From contig NZ_LR733413.1 in assembly GCF_902506345.1 (NCBI RefSeq), positions 1,097,456 through 1,161,455 of the forward strand: a stretch of 64,000 nt of DNA. Reading direction: 5' to 3'. The notes beneath the pieces are model-generated. The model saw nothing but the letters and a program-made list of their open reading frames with translations, was not told the DNA's origin and made no database searches. Shown here one piece after another: positions 48,809 to 62,681 of the stretch (its first letter is position 1; each line of letters begins with the position of its first letter). Source of the DNA: Flavobacterium sp. 9R (GTDB lineage: Bacteria > Bacteroidota > Bacteroidia > Flavobacteriales > Flavobacteriaceae). Made by a program: the position numbers and the translations under genes.

Positions 48809-50905
48809 TCATTCTTTTTGATATTGCTTATTTTTTAATATTTCTGAGCAAGTTTGATAGTAAGCAATGGTTTCATTGATGAGTTTTTGGTTTGGATTTT
48901 TTAATATAATTTCGTCATAATGCGATTCATAAACCTTCGGAACATTTGAATTCAGAATCATTTTTAAATCGAATTGCTTTACTTTTTGTTTGGGAGACAA
49001 AATAGTTAATACTTGCTCTTTTATTAGACCTAAATCCTGATAAGTAGCTATGAAAGCTCTTGGTTGATAGTTAGGTTGTAGTACGTTTTGTCCATAAAAT
49101 TTACTTTGGTAGTCAAAATGCAATACACCAAAAAGAGTTGGCATAATGTCAATTTGAGACATCAGTTGGGTGTATTTTACAGCTTTTGGTTTACTCGGAT
49201 TGTAGATAAAAGCTGGAATTCTGTATTTATCTAATGGCAATTCAATTTTTCCAGCGCTAGAAGCACAATGGTCGGATACAATTACAAAAATGGTGTTGGT
49301 AAACCAAGACTGTTTTTTTGCCATTGCAAAAAATTGTCGCAAGGCATAATCCGTATATTTTACGCCGCCTTCACGAGATTTAGCATCTCCTGGAATATCA
49401 ATTTTATTATTCGGATAGGTAAAAGGCCTGTGGTTACTAACAGTCATCCAATGTGAAAAGAAGGGTTTTCCTGTTTTTGCATCAGCATTAATAGTTTGAA
49501 TCGCTTTTTTTGCCATATCCTCATCGCAAACGCCCCATACATTGGCGAAGCTAATTTCACTTTGAGTAAATGTTTTTTTATCAATAATGTTATACCCATT
49601 TCCTCCAAAAAAAGATTCCATATTATCAAAGAAAGCGTCTCCGCCATACAAATAATTTACTTTGTATCCTTTCTTTTTAAAAATTGAAGCTGTAGTAAAC
49701 TTATTTTTATTGTCTTTCCTCTTTACGACACTTTCACCAGCTGTTGGTGGCAAACAAAGTGTCAAAGCTTCTAAGCCTCTTACAGTTCTATTGCCCACTG
49801 CATACATATTGGTAAATTCTAAGCTTTTATCAGCCAAGCTATCCAAGAATGGGGTGATGTTCTTTTCATTACCGTATCGCTTCATAAAATCTGCACTTAG
49901 ACTTTCTATGGTAATAAGCACCACATTTTTTTTAATTTCTAAACTGTCAGAAGTAACAGTTCTCTGAGTAGTTGTTCCTTTAATTTCTGGTAGTAAATTG
50001 TGTAATAGGGTATATGCTTGGTTATTTGGCAATGTTTTGTAAAACTTAAAATAATCCAATTCACTGTTCATAAATGCCAAATAGAACTTGTAAATTCCGT
50101 TAGATTGTAGTTCATTGGTGAAAATATTGGTCGAATTTTCTTTTTTTGCTAAAGTAGGAATTGCCCAAAACGAAAGCGCAAACAAGCTCAAGTAAACCAA
50201 AGACAGACTTATTTTTTCTTTGAAAGTAGGAAGCTTAGCCAAATAACTTTTGGTTCTTTTAACAATGAAAAAAGTAATGCCTCCAACTACTATAAATAAA
50301 GCGGTAAAAATAGGAATCACAGGATACGATTCCATAATGTTGCCAATTACTTCATTGGTATAAATCAAATAATTGACTGCAATAAAGTTGTATTTTACTC
50401 CAAATTCATTCCAAAAAAAGTATTCGCTGATACCGTTTTGTAAAAGCAGTAAAACATATAAAAAGATAACAAAACTAAACATCCACAAGCGCAAACGCTC
50501 ACGGTATTGAGGTAAAAATAAATACAAACCAAAGAATACGGTCTTAATTCCAACAAAGGTGATTCCAATTTTGGGTAAAGCGCCACCGTATTCATCCAAA
50601 ATAGTATTTACTAACGTTACATAACCTAATAAAGAGAGAAGTAATCCAAAAATGATATAACCATAAGGCTTATTGTATTTTGAATTGGAAATAAAAATCA
50701 AATAGAGCCACAGAAATCCACTGGCTATAATAAATACAAACACATCAGAACAAAGTCCTAGTCCATAAATTTTAATTACTTCTAGAAAAGTAAAAGAACT
50801 TTGTGTAATGGGATGAACCATCAAAACAGTTCTCAACACAAAACTAATACTAAGATAAAAAAGAGATAAGTAGTAAAACAGGGAAAGTTTTTTAAAAAAA
50901 GGCAT
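48809..50905 (-). CDS. Membrane sulfatase/LTA-synthase-type enzyme
   Basis: A 698-residue inner-membrane enzyme of the alkaline phosphatase superfamily. Five N-terminal transmembrane helices lie within about residues 5-270 and are followed by a large periplasmic domain. That domain has the metal-site ITIESLSADFM, the nucleophile-type threonine in GNRTVRGLEA and the metal-binding VSDHCASS. It resembles lipoteichoic-acid synthases and phosphoethanolamine or phosphoglycerol transferases. A Gram-negative Bacteroidota would not make lipoteichoic acid, so transfer to a glycan, lipid or lipid A is more likely. Its start lies about 48 bases from the TTAAG array of the divergent thioredoxin operon, which could influence it. 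Confidence 0.88.
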   Translation of the reverse strand: MPFFKKLSLFYYLSLFYLSISFVLRTVLMVHPITQSSFTFLEVIKIYGLGLCSDVFVFIIASGFLWLYLIFISNSKYNKPYGYIIFGLLLSLLGYVTLVNTILDEYGGALPKIGITFVGIKTVFFGLYLFLPQYRERLRLWMFSFVIFLYVLLLLQNGISEYFFWNEFGVKYNFIAVNYLIYTNEVIGNIMESYPVIPIFTALFIVVGGITFFIVKRTKSYLAKLPTFKEKISLSLVYLSLFALSFWAIPTLAKKENSTNIFTNELQSNGIYKFYLAFMNSELDYFKFYKTLPNNQAYTLLHNLLPEIKGTTTQRTVTSDSLEIKKNVVLITIESLSADFMKRYGNEKNITPFLDSLADKSLEFTNMYAVGNRTVRGLEALTLCLPPTAGESVVKRKDNKNKFTTASIFKKKGYKVNYLYGGDAFFDNMESFFGGNGYNIIDKKTFTQSEISFANVWGVCDEDMAKKAIQTINADAKTGKPFFSHWMTVSNHRPFTYPNNKIDIPGDAKSREGGVKYTDYALRQFFAMAKKQSWFTNTIFVIVSDHCASSAGKIELPLDKYRIPAFIYNPSKPKAVKYTQLMSQIDIMPTLFGVLHFDYQSKFYGQNVLQPNYQPRAFIATYQDLGLIKEQVLTILSPKQKVKQFDLKMILNSNVPKVYESHYDEIILKNPNQKLINETIAYYQTCSEILKNKQYQKE

Positions 50906-50952
50906 TCTATATTATTTTTATTCAAAATTATACTTGTCTTGCTGCAATTGGT

Positions 50953-51017
50953 TTAAGATTCATTTAAGATTGACTTAAGATTTGCTTAAAGTAAACTAAA
51001 ATTAAGATTCCCTTAAA
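50953..51017. promoter_or_regulatory. TTAAG box array, candidate response-regulator sites
   Basis: TTAAG or TTAA(A) boxes start at 50953, 50964, 50975 and 50986, exactly 11 bases apart, then at 51002 and 51013, again 11 apart. The wider consensus is YTTAAGAT. One box per helical turn in direct orientation is typical of OmpR-family regulator binding sites. The array lies 71 bases before the thioredoxin start at 51088. A near-consensus TGAGTTTG (51034-51041) follows and could be the -7 element. On the other side a TAATTTTG (50923-50930, minus) faces the sulfatase gene. Confidence 0.6.
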
Positions 51018-51087
51018 ATAAGTAACAACAAGTTGAGTTTGACTATAAATATAATACTTTTACTTTATGAATTTAACAAATGTTTAT

Positions 51088-51525
51088 ATGAAGAATGCAA
51101 TGCTACTTTTATTTCTTTTTTTGACCGCAAGTGGTTTTTCTCAAAACTGGAGAACCAATTTTGATGAAGCAAAAGCAGAAGCTACCAAAGAGGACAAAAA
51201 TATCGTTTTGGTATTTTCTGGTTCTGATTGGTGTGCGCCTTGTATGAAGTTAGATAATGTAGTTTGGAAATCAGAAGCCTTCAAACAAGAAGCAGAAAAA
51301 AATTGGGTCATTTATAAAGCCGATTTTCCGAAGAAAAAAGCCAATCAATTGGCACCCGATTTAACCGCTGCTAATCAAAAATTAGCCGAAAAATACAATC
51401 GTGGCGGAAGTTTTCCTTTGGTTGTATTGCTTGATAAAACTGGAAAAGTTTTAGGAATGACGGGTTTTAAAAATGTTCCTGCCAATGATTATATACAATT
51501 AATTCATTCGTTAGAGAAAAAATGA
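51088..51525 (+). CDS. Periplasmic thioredoxin-family protein
   Basis: A 145-residue exported thioredoxin-fold protein. A signal peptide (KNAMLLLFLFLTASGFSQ) is followed by the redox motif C49-A-P-C52 in GSDWCAPCMK. It probably reduces disulfides in the periplasm, possibly to mature the cysteine-containing DUF4266 lipoprotein encoded two genes downstream. An ATG at 51067 would add seven residues. Its last four bases overlap the ApbE gene, and six TTAAG boxes lie upstream. It is the first gene of an apparent six-gene unit. Confidence 0.9.
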   Translation: MKNAMLLLFLFLTASGFSQNWRTNFDEAKAEATKEDKNIVLVFSGSDWCAPCMKLDNVVWKSEAFKQEAEKNWVIYKADFPKKKANQLAPDLTAANQKLAEKYNRGGSFPLVVLLDKTGKVLGMTGFKNVPANDYIQLIHSLEKK

Positions 51526-52502
51526 GAAACGTAACTCTTATATTCCTGTTGACATCCATTTTCGCTTTTGGGCAAGTGACCCACAAGCGAAAATTGTATA
51601 TGCTAGGAAGTCCTTTTGAAATGACTGTCGTTGCTAAAGATACCATTCAAGGCAACATTTTTATTGATATGGCGGTTGCCGAAGTGAAGCGCATTGAAAA
51701 TCTAATTTCAGATTGGATTCCAACGACGCAAATATCTCAGGTCAGTAAAAATTCGGGAATTCAACCTGTAAAAGTTGATAAGGAAGTCTATGATTTGGTA
51801 GAACGTGCTATAAAAGTATCACAGCTAACTTCGGGAGCTTTTGATATTTCTTATGCTTCGATGGATAAAATTTGGAAATTCGACGGAAGTATGAAGGCTA
51901 TGCCAACTCCCGAAGCTATCAAACAATCTGTGGCTAGAATTGGCTATCAAAAAATTGTTTTAGATGCCAAAGCACAGACTATTTATTTGAAGGAAAAAGG
52001 AATGAAATTAGGTCTAGGTGGTATTGGTCAAGGCTATATTGCAGATAAAATCAAAGATTTATTGCTATCAAAAGGCTGTACCTCTGGAATTGTAAATGTA
52101 TCGGGCGATATTAACGCTTGGGGCTATCAAACGACAGGTAAACCTTGGACAGTCGCCATTGTTAACCCAATGAATAAAAATAAAGTATTTGCTACTTTCC
52201 CTCTCGAGAATAGTTCGGTGGAGACTTCGGGTAGTTACGAAAAATTTGTGGTTTTTGACGGCAAACGCTATTCTCATATTATCGACCCTAGAACGGGTTA
52301 TCCAGCACAAGGGGTGGTGAGTGTTTCTGTTTTTGCTAAACAAACTGAAATTGCGGATGCTCTTGCTACTGGGATTTTTGTTTTGGGAGTTGATGTAGGC
52401 TTGAACTTAGTCAACCAGCTAAAAGGCATTGGATGTATAATTGTTGACGATAAAGGGGAAATACATACCTCTAAAAATATTGATATTAAAAAATTTAACT
52501 AA
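51522..52502 (+). CDS. apbE: FAD:protein FMN transferase
   Basis: A 326-residue ApbE-type flavin transferase with an N-terminal signal sequence (RNVTLIFLLTSIFAFG). The FAD/Mg-site segments GLGGIGQGYIADKIK, NVSGDINAWG and HIIDPRTGYPAQG are intact, followed by ADALATGIFVLG. It attaches FMN through a phosphoester to a Thr or Ser in exported proteins. It overlaps the thioredoxin gene by four bases and the DUF4266 gene by one, so it belongs to this cluster. Its likely substrate is an exported neighbour; the DUF3570 protein has an SSGAS stretch. Confidence 0.95.
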   Translation: MRNVTLIFLLTSIFAFGQVTHKRKLYMLGSPFEMTVVAKDTIQGNIFIDMAVAEVKRIENLISDWIPTTQISQVSKNSGIQPVKVDKEVYDLVERAIKVSQLTSGAFDISYASMDKIWKFDGSMKAMPTPEAIKQSVARIGYQKIVLDAKAQTIYLKEKGMKLGLGGIGQGYIADKIKDLLLSKGCTSGIVNVSGDINAWGYQTTGKPWTVAIVNPMNKNKVFATFPLENSSVETSGSYEKFVVFDGKRYSHIIDPRTGYPAQGVVSVSVFAKQTEIADALATGIFVLGVDVGLNLVNQLKGIGCIIVDDKGEIHTSKNIDIKKFN

Positions 52503-52711
52503 TGAAAAAATTACTTTTTGCTAGTGTACTAGTAGCCGCTTTACAATCTTGTACTTCTGTAAAAGAATATGAAAAAGTAGCTATAAATGACCCTGATATG
52601 AAGCTTGCTGCAAGAGCATCAGAACGTTACGAAACCACTTTTCAGGTCTACAGAGAAGCTTCTGCTGGGGCTAATGGAGGAAAAACTGGTGGTGGTTGTG
52701 GATGCAACTAA
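52502..52711 (+). CDS. DUF4266 small lipoprotein with CGC tail
   Basis: A 69-residue predicted lipoprotein with lipobox ALQSC (lipidated Cys17). The mature part has a helical KEYEKVAINDPDMKLAARASERYETTFQ region and ends in a glycine-rich tail with two cysteines (C66 and C68) in GGGCGCN. The tail could bind a metal or take part in thiol exchange with the thioredoxin two genes upstream. It matches the DUF4266 family, which occurs next to DUF3570 and ApbE in many Proteobacteria and Bacteroidota (recalled). The TAA/ATG overlap with apbE shows coupling. Confidence 0.88.
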   Translation: MKKLLFASVLVAALQSCTSVKEYEKVAINDPDMKLAARASERYETTFQVYREASAGANGGKTGGGCGCN

Positions 52712-52747
52712 ATCCTCAAAATAATTTATTTAATTGAAATATAGATA

Positions 52748-54064
52748 ATGAAAAAAGCCTTATCCATTCTATTACTGAGTATTGTTTTCTTTGCCAATGG
52801 GCAACAGAAAGACACTACAGCAGTTGGATTTAAGAAAAGAGTATTAGAAACTACCGAAGTTGATTTCTTGTTAAGCTATTACAAACAAGATGGGATACAT
52901 TCAGCTGTTTCTGGTGGTAGCGGAACCGAAAACTTGACAGATATTACGGCTGCAATAGTGGTAGCAATGCCATTAAGCGATGATGAAGTACTTACGGCTG
53001 ACATAGGTATTTCTGCTTATTCATCTGCATCATCAAGTAATATTAATCCTTTTGATAGTAATACACCAAACCCTTGGCAATCTAGTTCGGGAGCATCGCA
53101 ATCAGACCAATTGACCAGTTTGGCTCTATCGTATTCTGCAAGTTCTGATGATAGAAACACAATTTGGAATGCACACGTTTCTGGTTCGGTGGAATATGAT
53201 TATTCTTCTATTGGATTTGGTGGTGGAGTTACCAAAGAATTTAATGATAAAAATACTGAAGTAAGCCTTTCTGCCAGTGCGTATTTGGATACGTGGAAAC
53301 CTATTTATCCGAAAGAATTACAGGATTATAAAAATAATGGAGATAATTTGAACGGTGGAATATTTGATTATTTTACCATTACTGGAAATACAGCTTATAA
53401 TCCGAGTCAATTCGAATTCCATAAGGATAAGAAAAGAAATTCTTATTCTGTATCGTTAAGTTTGTCGCAAGTGATTAACAAAAAATTGCAAGCTTCGGTG
53501 TTTTTGGATGTGTTACAACAACAAGGTTTGCTATCTACGCCGTATCAAAGGGTGTATTTCAAAGATGTGGCAGCTTCCTTTATCAATAATTTTCAGTTGG
53601 CCAATGATATTGAACGCCTACCAGATTCAAGATTCAAATTACCCATAGGAGCAAGGTTGCATTATTACATCAATGAACGCTTTGTGTTGCGAACCTATTA
53701 TCGATTCTATTCTGATAACTGGGGAATACAATCACATACCGCTAGTATTGAATTGCCAATCAAGCTAACGGATCGCTTTACGGTTTTTCCTATGTATCGT
53801 TATTATACACAAACGGCTTCAGACTATTTTGCACCTATCAATACGCATTTATCAACGGATCAATACTACACCTCAGATTTTGATTTGTCAGCTTTTGATG
53901 CCAATCAGTATGGATTTGGGGTCAATTATACCGATATTTTTACAGGAGCAAAAATTTGGAAATTTGGCTTGAAAAATATTGATTTTAGATACAATCATTA
54001 CGATAGGAGTGATGGTTTGAAAGCTGATATCGTTTCACTTGGGTTCAAGTTTTTAATGCAATAA
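52748..54064 (+). CDS. DUF3570 outer-membrane beta-barrel protein
   Basis: A 438-residue protein with a signal peptide (KKALSILLLSIVFFANG) and alternating-hydrophobicity beta strands to the end (FKFLMQ), fitting an outer-membrane beta-barrel of the DUF3570 family. Residues 112-117 read SSSGAS, similar to the xxSGA(T/S) acceptor sequence used by ApbE; this is suggestive only. Conserved pairing with DUF4266 and ApbE points to a flavin- or metal-linked envelope function. It ends 2 bases before the response regulator gene. Confidence 0.88.
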   Translation: MKKALSILLLSIVFFANGQQKDTTAVGFKKRVLETTEVDFLLSYYKQDGIHSAVSGGSGTENLTDITAAIVVAMPLSDDEVLTADIGISAYSSASSSNINPFDSNTPNPWQSSSGASQSDQLTSLALSYSASSDDRNTIWNAHVSGSVEYDYSSIGFGGGVTKEFNDKNTEVSLSASAYLDTWKPIYPKELQDYKNNGDNLNGGIFDYFTITGNTAYNPSQFEFHKDKKRNSYSVSLSLSQVINKKLQASVFLDVLQQQGLLSTPYQRVYFKDVAASFINNFQLANDIERLPDSRFKLPIGARLHYYINERFVLRTYYRFYSDNWGIQSHTASIELPIKLTDRFTVFPMYRYYTQTASDYFAPINTHLSTDQYYTSDFDLSAFDANQYGFGVNYTDIFTGAKIWKFGLKNIDFRYNHYDRSDGLKADIVSLGFKFLMQ

Positions 54065-54066
54065 CT

Positions 54067-54729
54067 ATGAAAATTCTTATTGTAGAAGACGAAGTTGGAA
54101 TTGCTGATTTTCTCAAACAAGGTTTAGAAGAAGAGGGCTATTCAGTATTAGTAGCTTACGATGGCGAAGCAGGTTTAGCCTTGGCTTTGCAGCAAAAAGT
54201 AAACGTTATTTTATTGGATTGGATGCTGCCAAAAATGCACGGAATAGACATTTGTAAAGCCATTCGAAAAGCCAATATTCAAACGCCTATTTTATTTTTG
54301 ACTGCTAGAGATACCGTACAAGAAACGATAGAAGGTTTGAAAGCTGGAGCGAATGATTACATCAAAAAACCTTTTAGTTTTGATGAATTAATTGAACGAA
54401 TTAAAATTCATTTTAGAAATACAGCTTCCAATGACCTATTGGTTTTAGGCAACATCAGCATTGATCCTTCCAAACATCAAGTGCTGCTGGGCGATCAAGA
54501 AGTTAATCTTACGCAACGCGAATATGAATTATTAGTATATTTAATCAAAAATAAAGGAAAGGTTTGTACTCGAAATCAAATCATTGAGGACGTTTGGGAT
54601 ATTCATTTTGAATACGATACAGGAGTTATTGATGTTTTTATGAACGCCATCCGAAAAAAACTCAATCTGAACAAAGAAGAAGATCTCATCAAAACCATTC
54701 GTGGCGTTGGCTATATTGCTAATGATTAA
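54067..54729 (+). CDS. OmpR-family response regulator
   Basis: A 220-residue regulator. The receiver domain has the acidic pocket VEDE near residue 8, phosphoacceptor D51 in LLDWMLP, a conserved T at LFLTAR and K in IKKPF. The C-terminal winged-helix DNA-binding domain spans about 125-220 (LTQREYELLVYLIKNKG). Homologues are often called CusR/CopR-like for metal response. I infer that it binds the TTAAG arrays at 50953-51017 and 56107-56144. It lies 12 bases before the kinase gene. Confidence 0.93.
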   Translation: MKILIVEDEVGIADFLKQGLEEEGYSVLVAYDGEAGLALALQQKVNVILLDWMLPKMHGIDICKAIRKANIQTPILFLTARDTVQETIEGLKAGANDYIKKPFSFDELIERIKIHFRNTASNDLLVLGNISIDPSKHQVLLGDQEVNLTQREYELLVYLIKNKGKVCTRNQIIEDVWDIHFEYDTGVIDVFMNAIRKKLNLNKEEDLIKTIRGVGYIAND

Positions 54730-54741
54730 TTTCACATAAAT

Positions 54742-56121
54742 ATGTTTTCATTTTCATACAAAGACAGAATTGCCTTTAACTATATTTTGAGCACTGGGCT
54801 CTTAATTTCTGTCGTTTTCATTGTGATTTATCAAAGTATGAAATACAATGTGAACACGCATATCAATGAAGACATTCAAACTGAGGTTCAAAAGCATTTA
54901 GAAGAAATAGAAATCGATCGCAACAATACCTATTTAATTCAAGTCGATCAATGGCGTGCGAGAGAGCACAACACTGTAAATGTTAACCCTGTTTTTGTAC
55001 AGTTTTTTGATATCAATAATCAATTAATTGACAAATCTCCCAATTTAAAAGGGCTTCAGCTCAAGATGTATAAAGCTCCTTTTGACAACAAATTTATTGA
55101 TACATATCTCAACAAAAAGCCCATTCGTCAGATTCAAGTTCCGCTGTATGACGAACAGAAAATTGTAGGTCATCTGTTTGTAGCAATGTCATTAGATGAT
55201 GCGCAAATGATTTTGAATAATTTACGCAATACTCTTTTTGTTTCTTTTCCTTTAATACTCATCTTGCTTTTCCTGATTGCTCGATTGATTGCAGGTCGAA
55301 GCATAAAACCTGTCACCGCCATTACTGAAACGTCTAGTAACATTACAAAAGACAACCTAAAAGGACGCATCGTTTTACCTCAAAACAAAGATGAACTCTA
55401 CACGCTTTCCAAAACAATAAATGATTTGCTGGATCGAATAGAAAATGCCGTAGAGCGAGAAAAACAATTTACTTCGGATGCTTCACACGAATTAAGAACG
55501 CCGCTAACGGTTTTGAAAGGTACTTTGGAAGTATTGATACGAAAACCGAGAACACAAGCAGAATACGAAGAAAAAATTGCATACAGTATTAAAGAAGTCA
55601 ATCGTGTAAATAACTTGGTGGATCAATTATTGTTATTGGCGCGTTTCGAAAATCAAAAACAACAATTAAAAATTGAAAAGGTGTATTTGAACGCATTGAT
55701 TTTGGATACTTTGACGATGTATTCAGAGAAGATAAAATCAAAGAAAACAACCGTTGTTAGTGAATTTACTGCTGATTATTACATTGAATCCGATCATTAT
55801 TTAGTAGCGATAATTATTGGAAACATTATCAGTAACGCCATCAAGTATTCTGGAGAAAATACTGTGGTCACAATTGATTTGAATAAAGACGAAAAAGGCA
55901 CCCACTGCATCATTACCGACCAAGGAATTGGTATAGCCAAAGCCGATTTGGATAAAATTTACAACCCTTTTTATCGTTCAAATGCTACAAATCATCCTAC
56001 GATAAAAGGCTCTGGATTAGGACTTTCTATAGTGAAACGAATTGCAGAATTACTCCCTATGGATATCGAAATTTTTAGTGAAACTGGCAAGGGAACTAAA
56101 GTAGTCTTAAGTTTTCATTAA
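54742..56121 (+). CDS. HAMP-domain sensor histidine kinase
   Basis: A 459-residue sensor kinase. Transmembrane helices at about 15-32 and 163-185 enclose a periplasmic sensor of about 130 residues. A HAMP linker, the dimerisation domain with H249 in DASHELRTP and an ATPase domain (N-box NIISNAIKYS, G boxes DQGIGI and GSGLGLSIV) follow. It phosphorylates the response regulator just upstream. The periplasmic sensor lacks an obvious His-rich metal site, so the signal is unknown. The last bases of the gene contain the first TTAAG box of the downstream array. Confidence 0.93.
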   Translation: MFSFSYKDRIAFNYILSTGLLISVVFIVIYQSMKYNVNTHINEDIQTEVQKHLEEIEIDRNNTYLIQVDQWRAREHNTVNVNPVFVQFFDINNQLIDKSPNLKGLQLKMYKAPFDNKFIDTYLNKKPIRQIQVPLYDEQKIVGHLFVAMSLDDAQMILNNLRNTLFVSFPLILILLFLIARLIAGRSIKPVTAITETSSNITKDNLKGRIVLPQNKDELYTLSKTINDLLDRIENAVEREKQFTSDASHELRTPLTVLKGTLEVLIRKPRTQAEYEEKIAYSIKEVNRVNNLVDQLLLLARFENQKQQLKIEKVYLNALILDTLTMYSEKIKSKKTTVVSEFTADYYIESDHYLVAIIIGNIISNAIKYSGENTVVTIDLNKDEKGTHCIITDQGIGIAKADLDKIYNPFYRSNATNHPTIKGSGLGLSIVKRIAELLPMDIEIFSETGKGTKVVLSFH

Positions 56122-56144
56122 TCTCTTTTTAAGCCGTTCTTAAG
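56107..56144. promoter_or_regulatory. TTAAG box array before the efflux operon
   Basis: TTAAG at 56107, TTAAT at 56118, TTAAG at 56129 and TTAAG at 56140 are spaced exactly 11 bases apart. The last box ends 21 bases before the -7 element TACTTTTG at 56166-56173, where a -33 element would be. This layout fits direct activation by the response regulator encoded just upstream. Confidence 0.6.
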
Positions 56145-56165
56145 ATATTTCATATATTTACCACT

Positions 56166-56173
56166 TACTTTTG
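56166..56173 (+). promoter_or_regulatory. -7 promoter element for the efflux operon
   Basis: TACTTTTG matches TAnnTTTG, 40 bases before the ATG at 56214. No TTG lies at -33, and a TTAAG box occupies that position. Confidence 0.6.
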
Positions 56174-56213
56174 TACCAAAGCTTGATGCTGTAACCATTT
56201 GAAGTAGTTGGAT

Positions 56214-56615
56214 ATGTCTGTCAAAAAAATAACGACCCTTTTATTTCTATTTGTTTTTGTGTATTCCAACACAGAAATAGGGCAGTTATTCAAAATTCCC
56301 AATTTGTATCAGCATTATTTAGAGCATCAAAATCACAACCAAGAACAAGCCTTTTCGTTTATCGATTTTACCATCAGTCACTACAATAATCTAAACAAAC
56401 ACGCCGATACCGATGGTCACGACAAGCACGAAAACTTACCTTTCAAAAGTCAAACCATCAATCTCGATACGGTTGTCTTGGCTTTTGAGGAACCTCAATC
56501 TATTTTTACTTTAAAAAATCCTATACGAGTAGTTGTAAATCAATCACTTCCGATTTACAAAGAATGGTATATTTCTAATGTATTTAGTTCAATTTGGCAA
56601 CCGCCTAAACTAGTT
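56214..56615 (+). CDS. His-rich small exported protein linked to RND efflux
   Basis: A protein of about 134 residues with a signal-like hydrophobic N-terminus (KKITTLLFLFVFVYSN) followed by a histidine-rich region: HYLEHQNHNQ, ISHYNNLNKHADTDGHDKHENLPFK. It ends in SIWQPPK, a tail I recall from small proteins placed before CzcA-type genes in Bacteroidota. The histidines probably bind Zn, Co, Ni or Cu in the periplasm, as a sponge or sensor. The ATG at 56214 is preferred to the in-frame TTG at 56208. It is the first gene after the second TTAAG array. Confidence 0.82.
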
Positions 56616-56716
56616 TAAAATTATCTTTATCGTTACTTATCTTTTTTGATAATTACTTTTTTACTGAATTATTGGTGTTCTAATGATTCTAAACGTATAA
56701 TTTTTAATTTACTAGT

Positions 56717-59700
56717 ATGCTAAATAAAATCATAGCATTTTCTATCCAAAACAAACTCATTGTATTATTGTTTACTTTGAGCGTGTTTGGTTTCGGATTG
56801 TTCTCTGTATTCCAAATTTCTATTGGCGCTGTGCCTGACGTGACCAACAATCAAGTGCAAGTGATTACCACTTCACGCAATCTTTCAACTCAAGATATTG
56901 AGCAATTTATTACGTATCCTGTCGAGATTGAAATGGCTAATTTGCCGGGCGTAAAAGAAATTCGTTCTATTTCAAAATTCGGTTTATCGGTCGTAACGAT
57001 TGTTTTTGATGACGATTTGGGAACGTATTTGCCTCGTCAATTAATCGCTGAAAAAATAAAAGCGGCTTCCGAAAAAATCCCCGAAGGTTTTGGTACACCC
57101 GAAATGGGACCGATTACCACTGGATTGGGCGAAATTTACCAATACACTTTGGAGGTAAAACCTCAGTTTAAAAACAACTATTCCATAACCGATTTGAGAA
57201 CGATTCAGGATTGGATTGTGAAACGACAATTGTCTGGAATTAATGGGGTGGTCGAAATCAATACTTGGGGTGGTTATTTAAAACAATACGAAATCAGTAT
57301 TCGTCCTTCGGAATTAAAGGCGATGAATTGTAGCTTGACTGAAATTTTTACCGCTTTAGAGAAGAATAACAGCATTGCAGGTGGGGCTTATATCGAAAAA
57401 ACGAATCAAAGTTATTTCATTCGTGGCGAAGGAAAAGTCAATAGCATTCAGGATATTGAAAACATTGTGGTTAAAAACACCAATGGTCTTCCCGTTTTGA
57501 TTAAAAATATTGCGAAAGTACAATTTGGTCACGCCAATCGTTTTGGAGCGATTACAGGAAATGGAGAAGGAGAGAAGGTACTCGGACAAGTGATGATGCT
57601 TAAAGGAGCGAACTCTAAGCAAGTCATTAGTGATGTCAAAGACAGAGTAGCCGAAATCCAAAAATCACTACCAGAAGGAGTCTATATCAATGGTTTTTTA
57701 GAACGTAGTGAATTGGTTGGGAAAACCACCTTTACGGTAGCCGAGAATTTAATTTTAGGCTGTTTGATTGTAATCTTTGTGGTGGTTTTATTGCTTGGTA
57801 ATTGGCGTTCTGGATTGGTCGTAGCTTCGGTGATTCCGTTGTGTTTGCTATTTGCCATTTCGTTTATGAATATTTTCGGAATCGATGCCAATTTGATGAG
57901 CTTAGGCGCCATTGATTTTGGAATTATTATCGATGGAGCTGTAATCATAGTGGAGTTCATTGCCTTTCAAATCGCCCAAAATTCGGCACATTTGGCAGGA
58001 TTAAACAAAGAAAATCGTCAAATTGAAATTGACCAAATCACCTATAAAAGCGCTTCCAAAATGATGAATTCTGCCATTTTTGGTCAGTTAATCATTCTGA
58101 TTGTTTTCATTCCGATTTTGTCTTTGTCAAGCATCGAAGGAAAAATGTTTAAACCGATGGCTATGACGTTTAGCTTTGCTTTATTGGGCGCGATGATTTT
58201 CTGTTTTACTTATGTTCCTGTTGTGGCTTCGATGTTTTTAAAACCAACAAGAGAAAATCCAAACTCGATTTCAGAGAAGCTCATCCGAAAATTAAATTCT
58301 TGGTATCTGCCTTCAATTACTTGGGCTTTGGGAAATACCAAAAAAGTATTGTACGGAGCACTAGCGTTGTTGGTGTTTTCGGGTGTTTTATTTAGTACTA
58401 TGGGAGGTGAATTTATTCCCACCTTAGACGAAGGAGATTTTGTGATTCAACCCGTTTTAAAAACAGGAACTTCTTTGACCAAAACCATCGAAACCACTAC
58501 TAAAATGGAGAAAATTATTTTGAAAAATTTCCCAGAAGTAGAGCAAGTCGTATCTAGAATTGGTGCTGCCGAAGTCCCAACCGACCCAATGTCGATGGAG
58601 GAAAGTGATATTATTGTGAAACTAAAACCAAAGTCGGAATGGGTTTCTGCCAGTTCCAAAGATGAATTGGCCGATAAGATAAAAGAAGCATTAAACGCCC
58701 AAATTCCAAATATGGAAATCGAGTTTACACAACCTATTGAGATGCGTTTTAATGAGTTGATTTCTGGAACCCGTTCTGATGTGGCGATTAAGATTTTCGG
58801 AACCGATTTGGATGTTTTAGCCCGAAAAGCACACGAGATTGAGCGCGCTATCAAAAAAGTTCCTGGAGCTTCGGATGTTATTATAGAAAAAACCGAAGGT
58901 TTACCTCAAATGTACGTGCAATATGACCGTTCCAAAATTGCGCGCTACGGTTTAAATATTGAAGATTTGAACGATGCCATCGCGCTGAGCTTCGCTGGAA
59001 AAGTAGTGGGAAATGTGTTTGAAGGCGAAAAACGATTCGATATGGTGATTCGTTTAGACCAAACCAACAGAAAAAGTATTGAGGACTTGAAAAACTTATA
59101 TGTTACGGTTCCCAATGGAGCTCAAATCCCGTTGAATGAGTTGGCTACCATTGAATATGCTGAAGGCCCTGCCAAAATATCGCGTGACAATACTAACCGA
59201 CGCATTGTAGTTGGAATTAACGTTCGTAATAGAGATTTACAAAGTGTAGTGACCGATATTCAAAAAATTGTAGATACGCAAATTAAGTTACCTGCGGGTT
59301 ATTATGTGCAATACGGCGGACAATTCGAAAATTTAGAAAGTGCCAAAGCCCGATTGCTTATTGCCGTTCCTATCGCTTTATTGTTGATATTTATACTGTT
59401 GCATTTTGCTTTTGGCTCAATGAAAGAAGCTTTGATGGTGTATTCGGCAATTCCGTTATCGGCAGTGGGAGGAATTTTATTATTGTGGATTCGTGATTTG
59501 CCTTTTAGTATTTCGGCGGGAGTTGGTTTTATCGCTCTTTTTGGTATCGCTGTGTTGAATGGTATTGTGTTGATTGAACACTTTAAAGAACTAAAACATC
59601 AAGGAATGACCGATATGAATGCCTTAATTTTGAAAGGAACAACCGACCGTTTGCGTCCAGTGCTATTGACAGCCGCCGCCGCTGCTTTAGGTTTTTTACC

Positions 59701-61051
59701 AATGGCGATTTCGTCGTCGGCAGGAGCAGAGGTACAACGTCCTTTGGCCACGGTAGTAATTGGGGGACTTTTTACAGCTACGGTTTTGACCTTAATTGTG
59801 TTGCCGATTTTATTTAAAGTTTTTGATTCAAAAGAATTCAAAAGACCCAAATTGAAAAAAGTCAAAAAGCACCTAACTGCTATTTTACTTTTGTTGGCTA
59901 GTAGTTTTGGATTTGCTCAAAACGCCAATATGTCACGAGAAGCGGTAATAACCAAAGCTCTTGAAAACAACAAAGGCATTAAAGCTGCAGCATTGCAAGT
60001 CAATAAAATGCAAGAAAATATCAAAAGCAGTTTTACCTTCGAAAAAACCAATGTGTATTATTCGTATGACCAAAATAATTTGGCCTTGAACAATCTACCG
60101 CTAAAAGTTTTTGGAGTGCAGCAACGCTTTTTGTTTCCTACCGTTTATGGCGTACAAAAGAAAGCGAATACCTCAGAATTTGAGAAAGAGAAGGCCAATT
60201 ATGAACTTCAAAAAAATAAACTTTCACTGCAAGTATACAAAACCTATGAGCAAATCGTGTATTGGCAACATCAGGAGCGCTTGTATTCTTATTTGGATAG
60301 TTTGTACCAGAATTTTTCTAAAGCCAGCGACCGTCGTTTCGAATTGGGAGAAACTAATTATTTAGAAAAAATTACAGCACAATCGAAATACAGACAAATT
60401 AAAACCAAACTCACCCAAATTAATTTTGAGAAAAAAGCACAATACGAATCCTTGCAAGCTTTGGTGCAATCCGACGAAAAAATAAGCATTCTTGAGAAAG
60501 AATTAGCACCAATGGCTACTTTGGATACTACATCAAATAAAGCTATTCATACTGCTTATTTAGAAAGTATTAGCAAAATGTACAAATCTCAAATTAGCTT
60601 GCAAAAACAACATTGGCTACCCGATTTGAATTTGGAATATTTTCAGGGACGAAATAACGGTCTGTCGCAATCTTTGTATGGTTTTCAAGTGGGTATTGCG
60701 GTTCCTATTTTATTCTCTGGAAATGTTTCTAAAACCAAAGTAGCACAACTAGAATCGCAAAGTTGGGAAGAGCAAAAGCTTAATCAAGAACAAAAAATGA
60801 CGCAATTTATCCGTCAACAGCAAAATGAAATTGCCAAGTACCAAGAAAGTATCAATTATTACAACGCCACTGGGAAAAAATTATCTGAGGAAATCATCAA
60901 AGTGGCGAATAGCAGTTATAAAAATGGTGAAATTGATTTTTTTCAATACATTCAGAGTTTAGAAAATGCGTTGTCTATAAAAATAGAATATGTAGAAGCT
61001 GTGCTGCAATTCAACAGCAATCAATTAGAATTACACTACCTTAATTATTAG
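56717..61051 (+). CDS. Fused CzcA-type RND pump and CzcC/TolC-type outer-membrane channel
   Basis: A 1444-residue fusion. Residues 1-1035 form an HME-RND pump with about twelve transmembrane helices. The proton-relay motif in TM4, SLGAIDFGIIIDGAVIIVEF, has D400, D406 and E413, matching the D402/D408/E415 spacing of CzcA and not CusA, so divalent Zn/Co/Cd (or Ni) efflux is more likely than monovalent Cu/Ag. A hydrophobic LTAILLLLASSFGFAQ segment at about 1053-1068 looks like an internal signal peptide. The remaining 375 residues are a TolC-like outer-membrane efflux protein. Such pump-channel fusions are common in Bacteroidota; cleavage after FGFA would release the channel. Confidence 0.95.
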   Translation: MLNKIIAFSIQNKLIVLLFTLSVFGFGLFSVFQISIGAVPDVTNNQVQVITTSRNLSTQDIEQFITYPVEIEMANLPGVKEIRSISKFGLSVVTIVFDDDLGTYLPRQLIAEKIKAASEKIPEGFGTPEMGPITTGLGEIYQYTLEVKPQFKNNYSITDLRTIQDWIVKRQLSGINGVVEINTWGGYLKQYEISIRPSELKAMNCSLTEIFTALEKNNSIAGGAYIEKTNQSYFIRGEGKVNSIQDIENIVVKNTNGLPVLIKNIAKVQFGHANRFGAITGNGEGEKVLGQVMMLKGANSKQVISDVKDRVAEIQKSLPEGVYINGFLERSELVGKTTFTVAENLILGCLIVIFVVVLLLGNWRSGLVVASVIPLCLLFAISFMNIFGIDANLMSLGAIDFGIIIDGAVIIVEFIAFQIAQNSAHLAGLNKENRQIEIDQITYKSASKMMNSAIFGQLIILIVFIPILSLSSIEGKMFKPMAMTFSFALLGAMIFCFTYVPVVASMFLKPTRENPNSISEKLIRKLNSWYLPSITWALGNTKKVLYGALALLVFSGVLFSTMGGEFIPTLDEGDFVIQPVLKTGTSLTKTIETTTKMEKIILKNFPEVEQVVSRIGAAEVPTDPMSMEESDIIVKLKPKSEWVSASSKDELADKIKEALNAQIPNMEIEFTQPIEMRFNELISGTRSDVAIKIFGTDLDVLARKAHEIERAIKKVPGASDVIIEKTEGLPQMYVQYDRSKIARYGLNIEDLNDAIALSFAGKVVGNVFEGEKRFDMVIRLDQTNRKSIEDLKNLYVTVPNGAQIPLNELATIEYAEGPAKISRDNTNRRIVVGINVRNRDLQSVVTDIQKIVDTQIKLPAGYYVQYGGQFENLESAKARLLIAVPIALLLIFILLHFAFGSMKEALMVYSAIPLSAVGGILLLWIRDLPFSISAGVGFIALFGIAVLNGIVLIEHFKELKHQGMTDMNALILKGTTDRLRPVLLTAAAAALGFLPMAISSSAGAEVQRPLATVVIGGLFTATVLTLIVLPILFKVFDSKEFKRPKLKKVKKHLTAILLLLASSFGFAQNANMSREAVITKALENNKGIKAAALQVNKMQENIKSSFTFEKTNVYYSYDQNNLALNNLPLKVFGVQQRFLFPTVYGVQKKANTSEFEKEKANYELQKNKLSLQVYKTYEQIVYWQHQERLYSYLDSLYQNFSKASDRRFELGETNYLEKITAQSKYRQIKTKLTQINFEKKAQYESLQALVQSDEKISILEKELAPMATLDTTSNKAIHTAYLESISKMYKSQISLQKQHWLPDLNLEYFQGRNNGLSQSLYGFQVGIAVPILFSGNVSKTKVAQLESQSWEEQKLNQEQKMTQFIRQQQNEIAKYQESINYYNATGKKLSEEIIKVANSSYKNGEIDFFQYIQSLENALSIKIEYVEAVLQFNSNQLELHYLNY

Positions 61052-62201: not shown

Positions 62202-62681
62202 ATGAATGAAGCACATTTGCACCTAGTGGTGAACCATTTTCCTATTATCGGGACGATTTTAGGATTAGGAATTTTAGTGGTTGGGTTGTTGTTAAAAAAC
62301 AATTCGGTCAAGAATACGGCATTTTTTCTGTTTATTGTAGCAGCTATTTTTGCTGCAGTGAGTATGGCAACCGGAGAAGGAGCAGAGGAATTGGTTGAGG
62401 ATATGCCTACTATTGGTCACGATATTATTCACGAACACGAAGAAATGGCGGAAAAACTAGCCATTGCATTGTATGTATTAGCAGTTACTTCTTTAGCCGG
62501 TTTGTATTTGAATTACAAAAAATCAGCTAAATCGGTTTTGGTAACTTATGTAGCGCTTGTTATTGCTGTGGTAGCCGTATTTTTGGGACAACAAACTGGA
62601 ACAACAGGTGGAGAGATTCGTCATACAGAGATAAGATCAGTAGCGATTCCTGCTGATGTTCAAATGGAAGACAAGGATTAA
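62202..62681 (+). CDS. Small four-helix membrane protein of the efflux cluster
   Basis: A 159-residue protein with four transmembrane helices (about 8-28, 36-56, 83-103 and 111-131). The N-terminal MNEAHLHLVVNHFPIIG carries histidines arranged as in DUF2231-type proteins, which are thought to bind heme or metal. Conserved HDIIHEHEEM lies in a loop. The C-terminal tail is polar. It follows the adaptor gene by 25 bases and is probably the last gene of the efflux operon. Function is not established. Confidence 0.8.
   Translation: MNEAHLHLVVNHFPIIGTILGLGILVVGLLLKNNSVKNTAFFLFIVAAIFAAVSMATGEGAEELVEDMPTIGHDIIHEHEEMAEKLAIALYVLAVTSLAGLYLNYKKSAKSVLVTYVALVIAVVAVFLGQQTGTTGGEIRHTEIRSVAIPADVQMEDKD

Follow-up and report, generated by a model that had tools for sequence, protein, structure and literature searches.

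A predicted phase-locked operator upstream of a metal-efflux operon in Flavobacterium sp. 9R and its relatives

In a 64,000-nt window of the Flavobacterium sp. 9R genome (contig NZ_LR733413.1), four CTTAAG-type boxes, here called array 2, stand in phase with a -7 element upstream of a metal-efflux operon. Array 2 is, in our judgment, very likely the operator of the efflux promoter, read by the adjacent response regulator (RR) through class II activation. The properties computed were the boxes themselves, their period, their phase lock, their co-occurrence with the RR across the class, and their absence beside other regulators of the genome. The features of the two-component block and the efflux operon, all on the plus strand, are:

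54067 to 54729, plus strand: OmpR/PhoB-family response regulator (RR), the proposed reader of the boxes, encoded between the two arrays
54742 to 56121, plus strand: sensor histidine kinase, with profile matches to HAMP, HisKA and HATPase_c
56106 to 56111, plus strand: box 1, CTTAAG, at -60 from the T of TACTTTTG, within kinase codons
56117 to 56122, plus strand: box 2, ATTAAT, weak, at -49, overlapping the kinase stop codon
56128 to 56133, plus strand: box 3, TTTAAG, at -38, first member of the conserved core pair
56139 to 56144, plus strand: box 4, CTTAAG, at -27, second member of that pair, near the place expected for a -33 element
56166 to 56173, plus strand: -7 element TACTTTTG, of the TAnnTTTG type (consensus from a passage of PMC7366714)
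56214 to 56618, plus strand: small ORF that opens the efflux operon; by eye it is His-rich and looks exported; 90% identical in genome G402
56717 to 61051, plus strand: RND pump of the CusA/CzcA family with a fused TolC-like outer membrane efflux domain, 1444 aa
61061 to 62176, plus strand: periplasmic adaptor (RND_mfp, HlyD_D23/CusB-type)
62202 to 62681, plus strand: DUF2231-like membrane protein (26.2 bits, just below the Pfam cut-off of 26.4)

The 6-mers CTTAAG, ATTAAT, TTTAAG and CTTAAG start at 56106, 56117, 56128 and 56139, giving a period of 11 bp, and box 4 is separated from TACTTTTG by 21 bases. The original prediction of four TTAAG boxes at 56107, 56118, 56129 and 56140 was thus right in position and period, except that box 2 reads TTAAT; it had also put the last box 21 bases before the -7 element, as the positions 56139-56144 and 56166-56173 bear out, and the first boxes inside the 3' end of the kinase gene, whose end at 56121 is indeed overlapped by boxes 1 and 2. 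Direct repeats with a period of about 11 bp are what an operator of the OmpR/PhoB family would be expected to contain. TACTTTTG agrees with TAnnTTTG, the -7 form of Bacteroidota primary-sigma promoters, and a TAnnTTTG with a box upstream was found in 26 of 31 Flavobacterium efflux promoters. A further claim, that the last box replaces the -33 element, is favored by the position of box 4 and by the finding that a TTG 20-25 bp before the TA occurs in none of these 26 promoters (1/30 if TAnnTTTA is also allowed), and this part of the support is weak, since F. johnsoniae lacks an evident -33 motif anyway (a passage of PMC7366714). Both the site position and the missing upstream TTG would fit a class II promoter, in which the activator would also touch sigma.

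We then measured phase as the distance from each box start to the T of TAnnTTTG. Among Flavobacterium efflux promoters (26 usable of 31), 61 of 63 NTTAAG boxes start at 27, 38, 49 or 60 bp, and among those of other genera (10 usable of 14), 20 of 21 boxes start at 38 or 49 bp. The anchored consensus agrees (an 85% identity filter leaves 19/23 and 10/10 sequences), and the other genera add weaker TTTAG and CTTAG at 27 and 16. The strong pair thus slid by exactly one 11-bp turn between clades (N32 vs. N21) while keeping its helix face. In the wider class, only 6 of 16 ortholog loci have a (T/C)AnnTTT(G/A) element exactly in register, as do 5 of 14 distant named loci; the species are related, and these counts are not independent. 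The register counts support the original proposal that the boxes are in phase with the -7 element of what would be a regulated metal-efflux promoter. They also bear on an alternative that we regard as unlikely, namely that the RR occupies the array chiefly as a repressor or to set a threshold, with the -38 and -27 boxes blocking polymerase until the kinase changes state. The boxes overlap the -33 region, a geometry that may also serve repression, and the computations are neutral on the sign of control. However, a whole-turn slide with the phase kept (21 vs. 32 bp) fits contact between an activator and polymerase, and the missing TTG suggests a promoter needing help, even though an evident -33 is generally lacking in the genus.

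The boxes do not look like accidental repeats. Across the genome (3,580,589 bases, 16 contigs), the pattern TTAAGN6TTAAGN6TTAAG with at most one mismatch has six overlapping matches, all of them in array 2 or in a second array, array 1, and the two arrays form the two ends of one two-component block. Because the same pattern read backwards also gives five matches in the genome, the location of the matches is more telling than their raw number. In 20 simulated 64-kb strands (third-order Markov), no stretch reached at least 14/15 over three boxes or at least 17/20 over four, and we ruled out chance on these simulations together with the genome-wide rarity.

Could the repeats instead lack a regulatory role and simply follow from the C-terminal kinase codons and the AT-rich sequence? 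Box 1 does cover Leu-Ser codons of the kinase, and TTAAG occurs in the last 36 nt of 21/31 kinases with efflux genes next and also of 9/31 other kinases, without a pump or small ORF directly after, so that box 1 is partly coding-derived. Coding alone was nevertheless rejected on this comparison of kinase ends, and we give the idea hardly any credence: boxes 3 and 4 stand 3' of the kinase stop codon, the phase lock to the -7 element and the rarity in the genome count against it, and at six loci of other genera (L047-L050, L055 and L060), where the pump gene starts 271-424 bp after the kinase, a pair is nevertheless present a short way upstream of the pump. At six further loci (L197, L198, L200, L205, L222 and L231), a box supplies the last kinase codons and continues into the stop codon (Leu-Lys-stop, CTTAAGTAG or CTTAAGTAA), which looks as though selection on the operator had shaped the kinase tail there.

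The RR at 54067-54729 is very probably the reader of the boxes, since three sets of counts, from ortholog loci, from co-occurrence and from named orthologs, link the core pair to it. At class level, RR ortholog loci from nine other families (3.1-3.7 kb, searched within 1.5 kb of the RR) contain the core TTAAG-N5-CTTAAG with at most one mismatch in 16/16 cases and exactly in 14, compared to 1.1 expected from shuffles and 1 for the reversed pattern. Three of these genomes are 58-64% GC, where TTAAG is rare; one locus (L295) has as its sole match a pair with one mismatch, about 1 kb away from the RR. The core was found at 0/9 other receiver-domain loci of the 9R genome, five of which encode full-length OmpR-type regulators. 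The recognition-helix residues IDVxxNxxRKKL are invariant in 18/18 RR orthologs.

Judged from the best 7-10 scored candidates per genome, the RR ortholog is present in 206/299 Flavobacterium genomes (E <= 1e-70) and has a patchy distribution beyond them, in 18/299 family genomes and 22/395 class genomes (E <= 1e-60). In the 299 Flavobacterium genomes, core-pair-N21-TAnnTTTG has 81 matches in 70 genomes, 68 of them with the RR (reversed pattern, 2). Seventeen of these matches were set aside post hoc by sequence pattern as one repeated family; the ORF was checked in 4 of the 17, and all four lie inside an ORF of ~405 aa. A conserved stretch inside this ORF, which starts with MRLHRNLVFT (L235, L236, L240 and L262), mimics a box pair, N21 and a -7 element, and we took it to be a coding look-alike. 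The remaining 64 matches fall in 61 genomes, 60 of which carry the RR (Fisher p 2e-10). Once the set-aside family is left out, only 60 of the 206 RR-containing Flavobacterium genomes have the exact N21 pattern, and many lack a pump beside the kinase. The corresponding core-pair-N32-TAnnTTTG pattern was found in 13/18 family genomes with the RR vs. 5/281 without it (299 genomes, p 4e-15; reversed pattern, 1). Both p-values overstate the association, as related species are not independent. In 29 Flavobacterium RR loci of 3.6 kb, the core occurs in 17 (2.0 expected) and the reversed pattern in 6.

Of 80 named loci, 14 were also scanned as distant orthologs and 53 as controls with other RRs. The core is present in 12/14 distant orthologs, compared to 5/53 controls, many of them probably GC-rich, with none in register. 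In all nine orthologs with an identity of 55% or more (records of Dysgonomonas, Dyadobacter (two), Hymenobacter, Algoriphagus, Crocinitomix, Melioribacteraceae (two) and Calditrichota), the core lies upstream of the RR at a distance of about 200 bp or less; those below 55% have mostly weak pairs or none. Flanks were fetched for 60 of the 206 RR-containing Flavobacterium genomes plus G127 and G000, hand-picked for best hits and long contigs. The family figures on box phase, anchored consensus and promoter elements come from L045-L060, leaving out L061 (a 54% partial match) and L062 (a 46% paralog), and L099 yielded no RR. The box pair also stands before the RR gene in other genera, which suggests RR autoregulation there from a nearly leaderless transcript; at L046 and L047 (others by eye), this pair lies 32 bp from a CAnnTTTG that is a few bases before the ATG.

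If another OmpR-type RR or some other factor read the boxes, the link to the RR at 54067-54729 would be one of operon linkage only. G402 (L282), the sole genome without the RR among the 61 with the N21 pattern, fits that possibility: it has kept array 2 and the pump, the block of sulfatase, redox, RR and kinase genes is gone from beside the pump, and its best RR match is only 35% identical, with no close ortholog. We nonetheless consider a different reader quite improbable. The contrast between 16/16 ortholog loci, GC-rich genomes included, and 0/9 other receiver-domain loci speaks against it, as do both co-occurrence tests, and the divergent G127 paralog (46% identical, L062) offers no more than a pair with one mismatch some 1.1 kb upstream. 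G402 itself looks like a deletion that left a kinase remnant before the array.

Profile searches place the proteins of the block in known families. The RR scores 110.7 bits against the receiver domain PF00072 and 86.6 bits against the winged-helix Trans_reg_C domain PF00486, both above cut-off, which places it in the OmpR/PhoB family. The best of its NCBIfam hits shown is the heavy-metal RR subfamily TIGR01387, at 215.5 bits and below the cut-off of 279.2; against the PmrA equivalog NF007928, it scores 153.2 bits (cut-off, 330). The best NCBIfam model of the kinase, cztS_silS_copS, gives 224 bits and likewise falls below its cut-off of 292.55. The pump belongs to the HME-RND family (TIGR00914, 1173.9 bits; cut-off, 701.45), with pump and outer-membrane domain in one 1444-aa polypeptide that has an internal signal-like stretch, and fused ORFs of 1441-1453 aa recur among the listed relatives. 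The small ORF at 56214-56618 has no Pfam or NCBIfam match; it is listed from a TTG at 56208, and the start shared with G402 is the ATG at 56214. At L180, L181, L186, L189 and L220, a 372-aa protein replaces the pump after the kinase, and in both cases tested (L181 and L186) it is of the VIT1 family (PF01988). Because a VIT1-family protein takes this position in some relatives, the signal could be Fe or Mn just as plausibly as Zn, Co, Ni or Cu.

At the other end of the block, array 1 lies between a sulfatase-fold gene and a redox operon:

48809 to 50905, minus strand: membrane protein with a Pfam Sulfatase domain; NCBIfam hits of the phosphoglycerol transferase I and LtaS-like types far below cut-off
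50923 to 50930, minus strand: -7 element TAATTTTG, facing the sulfatase-fold gene
50952 to 50990, minus strand: array 1 boxes CTTAAA, CTTAAA, CTTAAG and TTTAAG, at -27, -38, -49 and -60
51001 to 51017, probably inverted: box pair ATTAAG-N5-CTTAAA before the redox operon
51055 to 51062, plus strand: -7-like element TACTTTTA of the redox operon, with a TTG 22 bp upstream
51067 to 54064, plus strand: redox genes for a thioredoxin-like protein, ApbE, DUF4266 (52502-52711) and DUF3570

Four of the six boxes here read on the minus strand and lie 60, 49, 38 and 27 bp from TAATTTTG, a register identical to that of array 2, so the divergent sulfatase-fold gene at 48809-50905 is a predicted target. In the sulfatase-gene promoters of relatives (35 usable of 40), 68 of 92 boxes are in phase. 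We therefore rejected array 1 as simply the array of the redox promoter: its four boxes face the sulfatase-fold gene in register with TAATTTTG. The original prediction, in which one regulator controls the redox genes and the pump, stands in so far as both arrays appear to be under one regulator, with a candidate RR encoded between them; its assignment of array 1 to the redox genes does not hold in the main, as the four boxes would belong to the sulfatase promoter and the pair at 51001 and 51012 alone fronts the redox operon.

This redox pair lies 54 and 43 bp from TACTTTTA, about half a turn off the array register. An alternative element, TACTTTAT at 51061, would put the pair in register (49 and 60 bp) and was discarded, being a poor -7 element, with the relatives favoring 43 or 44 bp. 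In Flavobacterium redox (Trx) promoters, the distance to the nearest box is 43 bp in 9/17 and 44 bp in 1/17; these are the 17 usable promoters (TAnnTTT[GA]) of 38, and three of the loci, the window included, are near-identical relatives. Where a spacer carries an orientation cue, redox pairs read as inverted in 5/5 cases without an adjacent sulfatase gene and in 18/18 with one, the latter count including the sulfatase array. The cue reads forward at other-genera pump promoters (11/11) and at sulfatase promoters (19/19); in Flavobacterium pump promoters, only one spacer carries it. In G505, whose RR is 99% identical, the fetched stretch lacks the sulfatase gene and the 190 nt ahead of the thioredoxin gene lack the four array 1 boxes, while the redox pair is retained. 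A separate geometry at the redox operon, with an inverted pair at 43 and 54 bp, is suggestive only, and control of this operon by the same RR is plausible. More tentatively, and with the odds rather against it, forward boxes at 27+11k bp may be class II sites (pump and sulfatase) and the inverted 43/54 pair may give a different redox response, such that one signal would have three outputs set by geometry, in a code kept across Bacteroidota and into the Melioribacteraceae and Calditrichota records.

The sulfatase-fold enzyme EptA is a target of the enterobacterial regulator PmrA, a likeness to the sulfatase-fold gene here. The Salmonella PmrA box given in a passage of PMC3973317 is CTTAAG-N5-XTTAAT, bound head to tail, and PmrA/BasR shares with our system the CTTAAG half-site, the 5-bp spacer and head-to-tail binding of the OmpR/PhoB type. 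Our core TTTAAG-N5-CTTAAG matches in half-site and spacing, and boxes 1 and 2 (CTTAAG-N5-ATTAAT) fit the PmrA box. In contrast to PmrA, the RR here scores far below the PmrA model (153.2 bits vs. 330), and there are four phased boxes with a Bacteroidota -7 element; a metal RND pump and a sulfatase-fold gene would be the targets, perhaps joined by a flavinylation cluster. CusR, CzcR, SilR and CopR resemble this system in their family model (TIGR01387, the best among those of NCBIfam) and in an adjoining CztS-like kinase and HME-RND pump, whereas the RR here scores under the cut-off of that family. CusR has a site of another sequence, which resembles an inverted repeat. At PhoB class II promoters, as here, direct repeats occupy the position of the upstream core promoter element. 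PhoB differs in box sequence and type of sigma factor, and the whole-turn sliding between clades sets the system here apart. The acidic transactivation loop of PhoB faces sigma, according to a passage of PMC3973317; the corresponding RR loop, DIHFEYDTG, has acidic residues that are mostly kept or similarly replaced in orthologs.

By gene content, the operon at 51067-54064 is a DUF3570 flavinylation cluster, with ApbE, DUF3570, DUF4266 and thioredoxin-like genes together; all four genes occur in the clusters described in PMC8238504. Passages of that paper count 25 clusters with a VIT1 gene nearby, as in some relatives here, and name no two-component regulator or RND pump with the clusters. In the open-licence literature covered (titles, abstract starts and passages), we found no description of the motif, its regulator or a link between the pump and the flavinylation cluster; the direct repeat in tolC in a passage of PMC10197871 is unrelated.

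We propose that activation of the neighboring kinase would lead to phosphorylation of the RR, whose dimers would bind the CTTAAG-type boxes head to tail, with one DNA-binding domain per 11-bp turn. By analogy with PmrA and PhoB, RR on the strong pair at -38 and -27 would take over the role of the -33 element and, in class II activation, recruit to TACTTTTG the RNA polymerase that contains the primary sigma factor of the Bacteroidota. From a start site expected near 56177-56180, transcription would cover the small ORF, the fused RND pump, the adaptor and the DUF2231-like gene. Binding, its dependence on phosphorylation, activation over repression, the start site and the metal signal are what we infer here.

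To our knowledge, promoters at which the Bacteroidota primary sigma factor depends on an activator are poorly defined. As far as sequence comparison can tell, the phase-locked operator design extends well beyond this genome, and relatives tend to keep the phase between boxes and promoter though the repeats slide by whole turns. Array 2 offers a compact promoter with exact geometry, a candidate regulator and natural variants (whole-turn slides and deletions) across many genera, and G402 is a natural test case for the fate of an orphan array. The predicted regulon would link an extracytosolic flavinylation cluster to metal efflux and to a sulfatase-fold envelope enzyme, and may thereby provide a testable clue to the purpose of that cluster.
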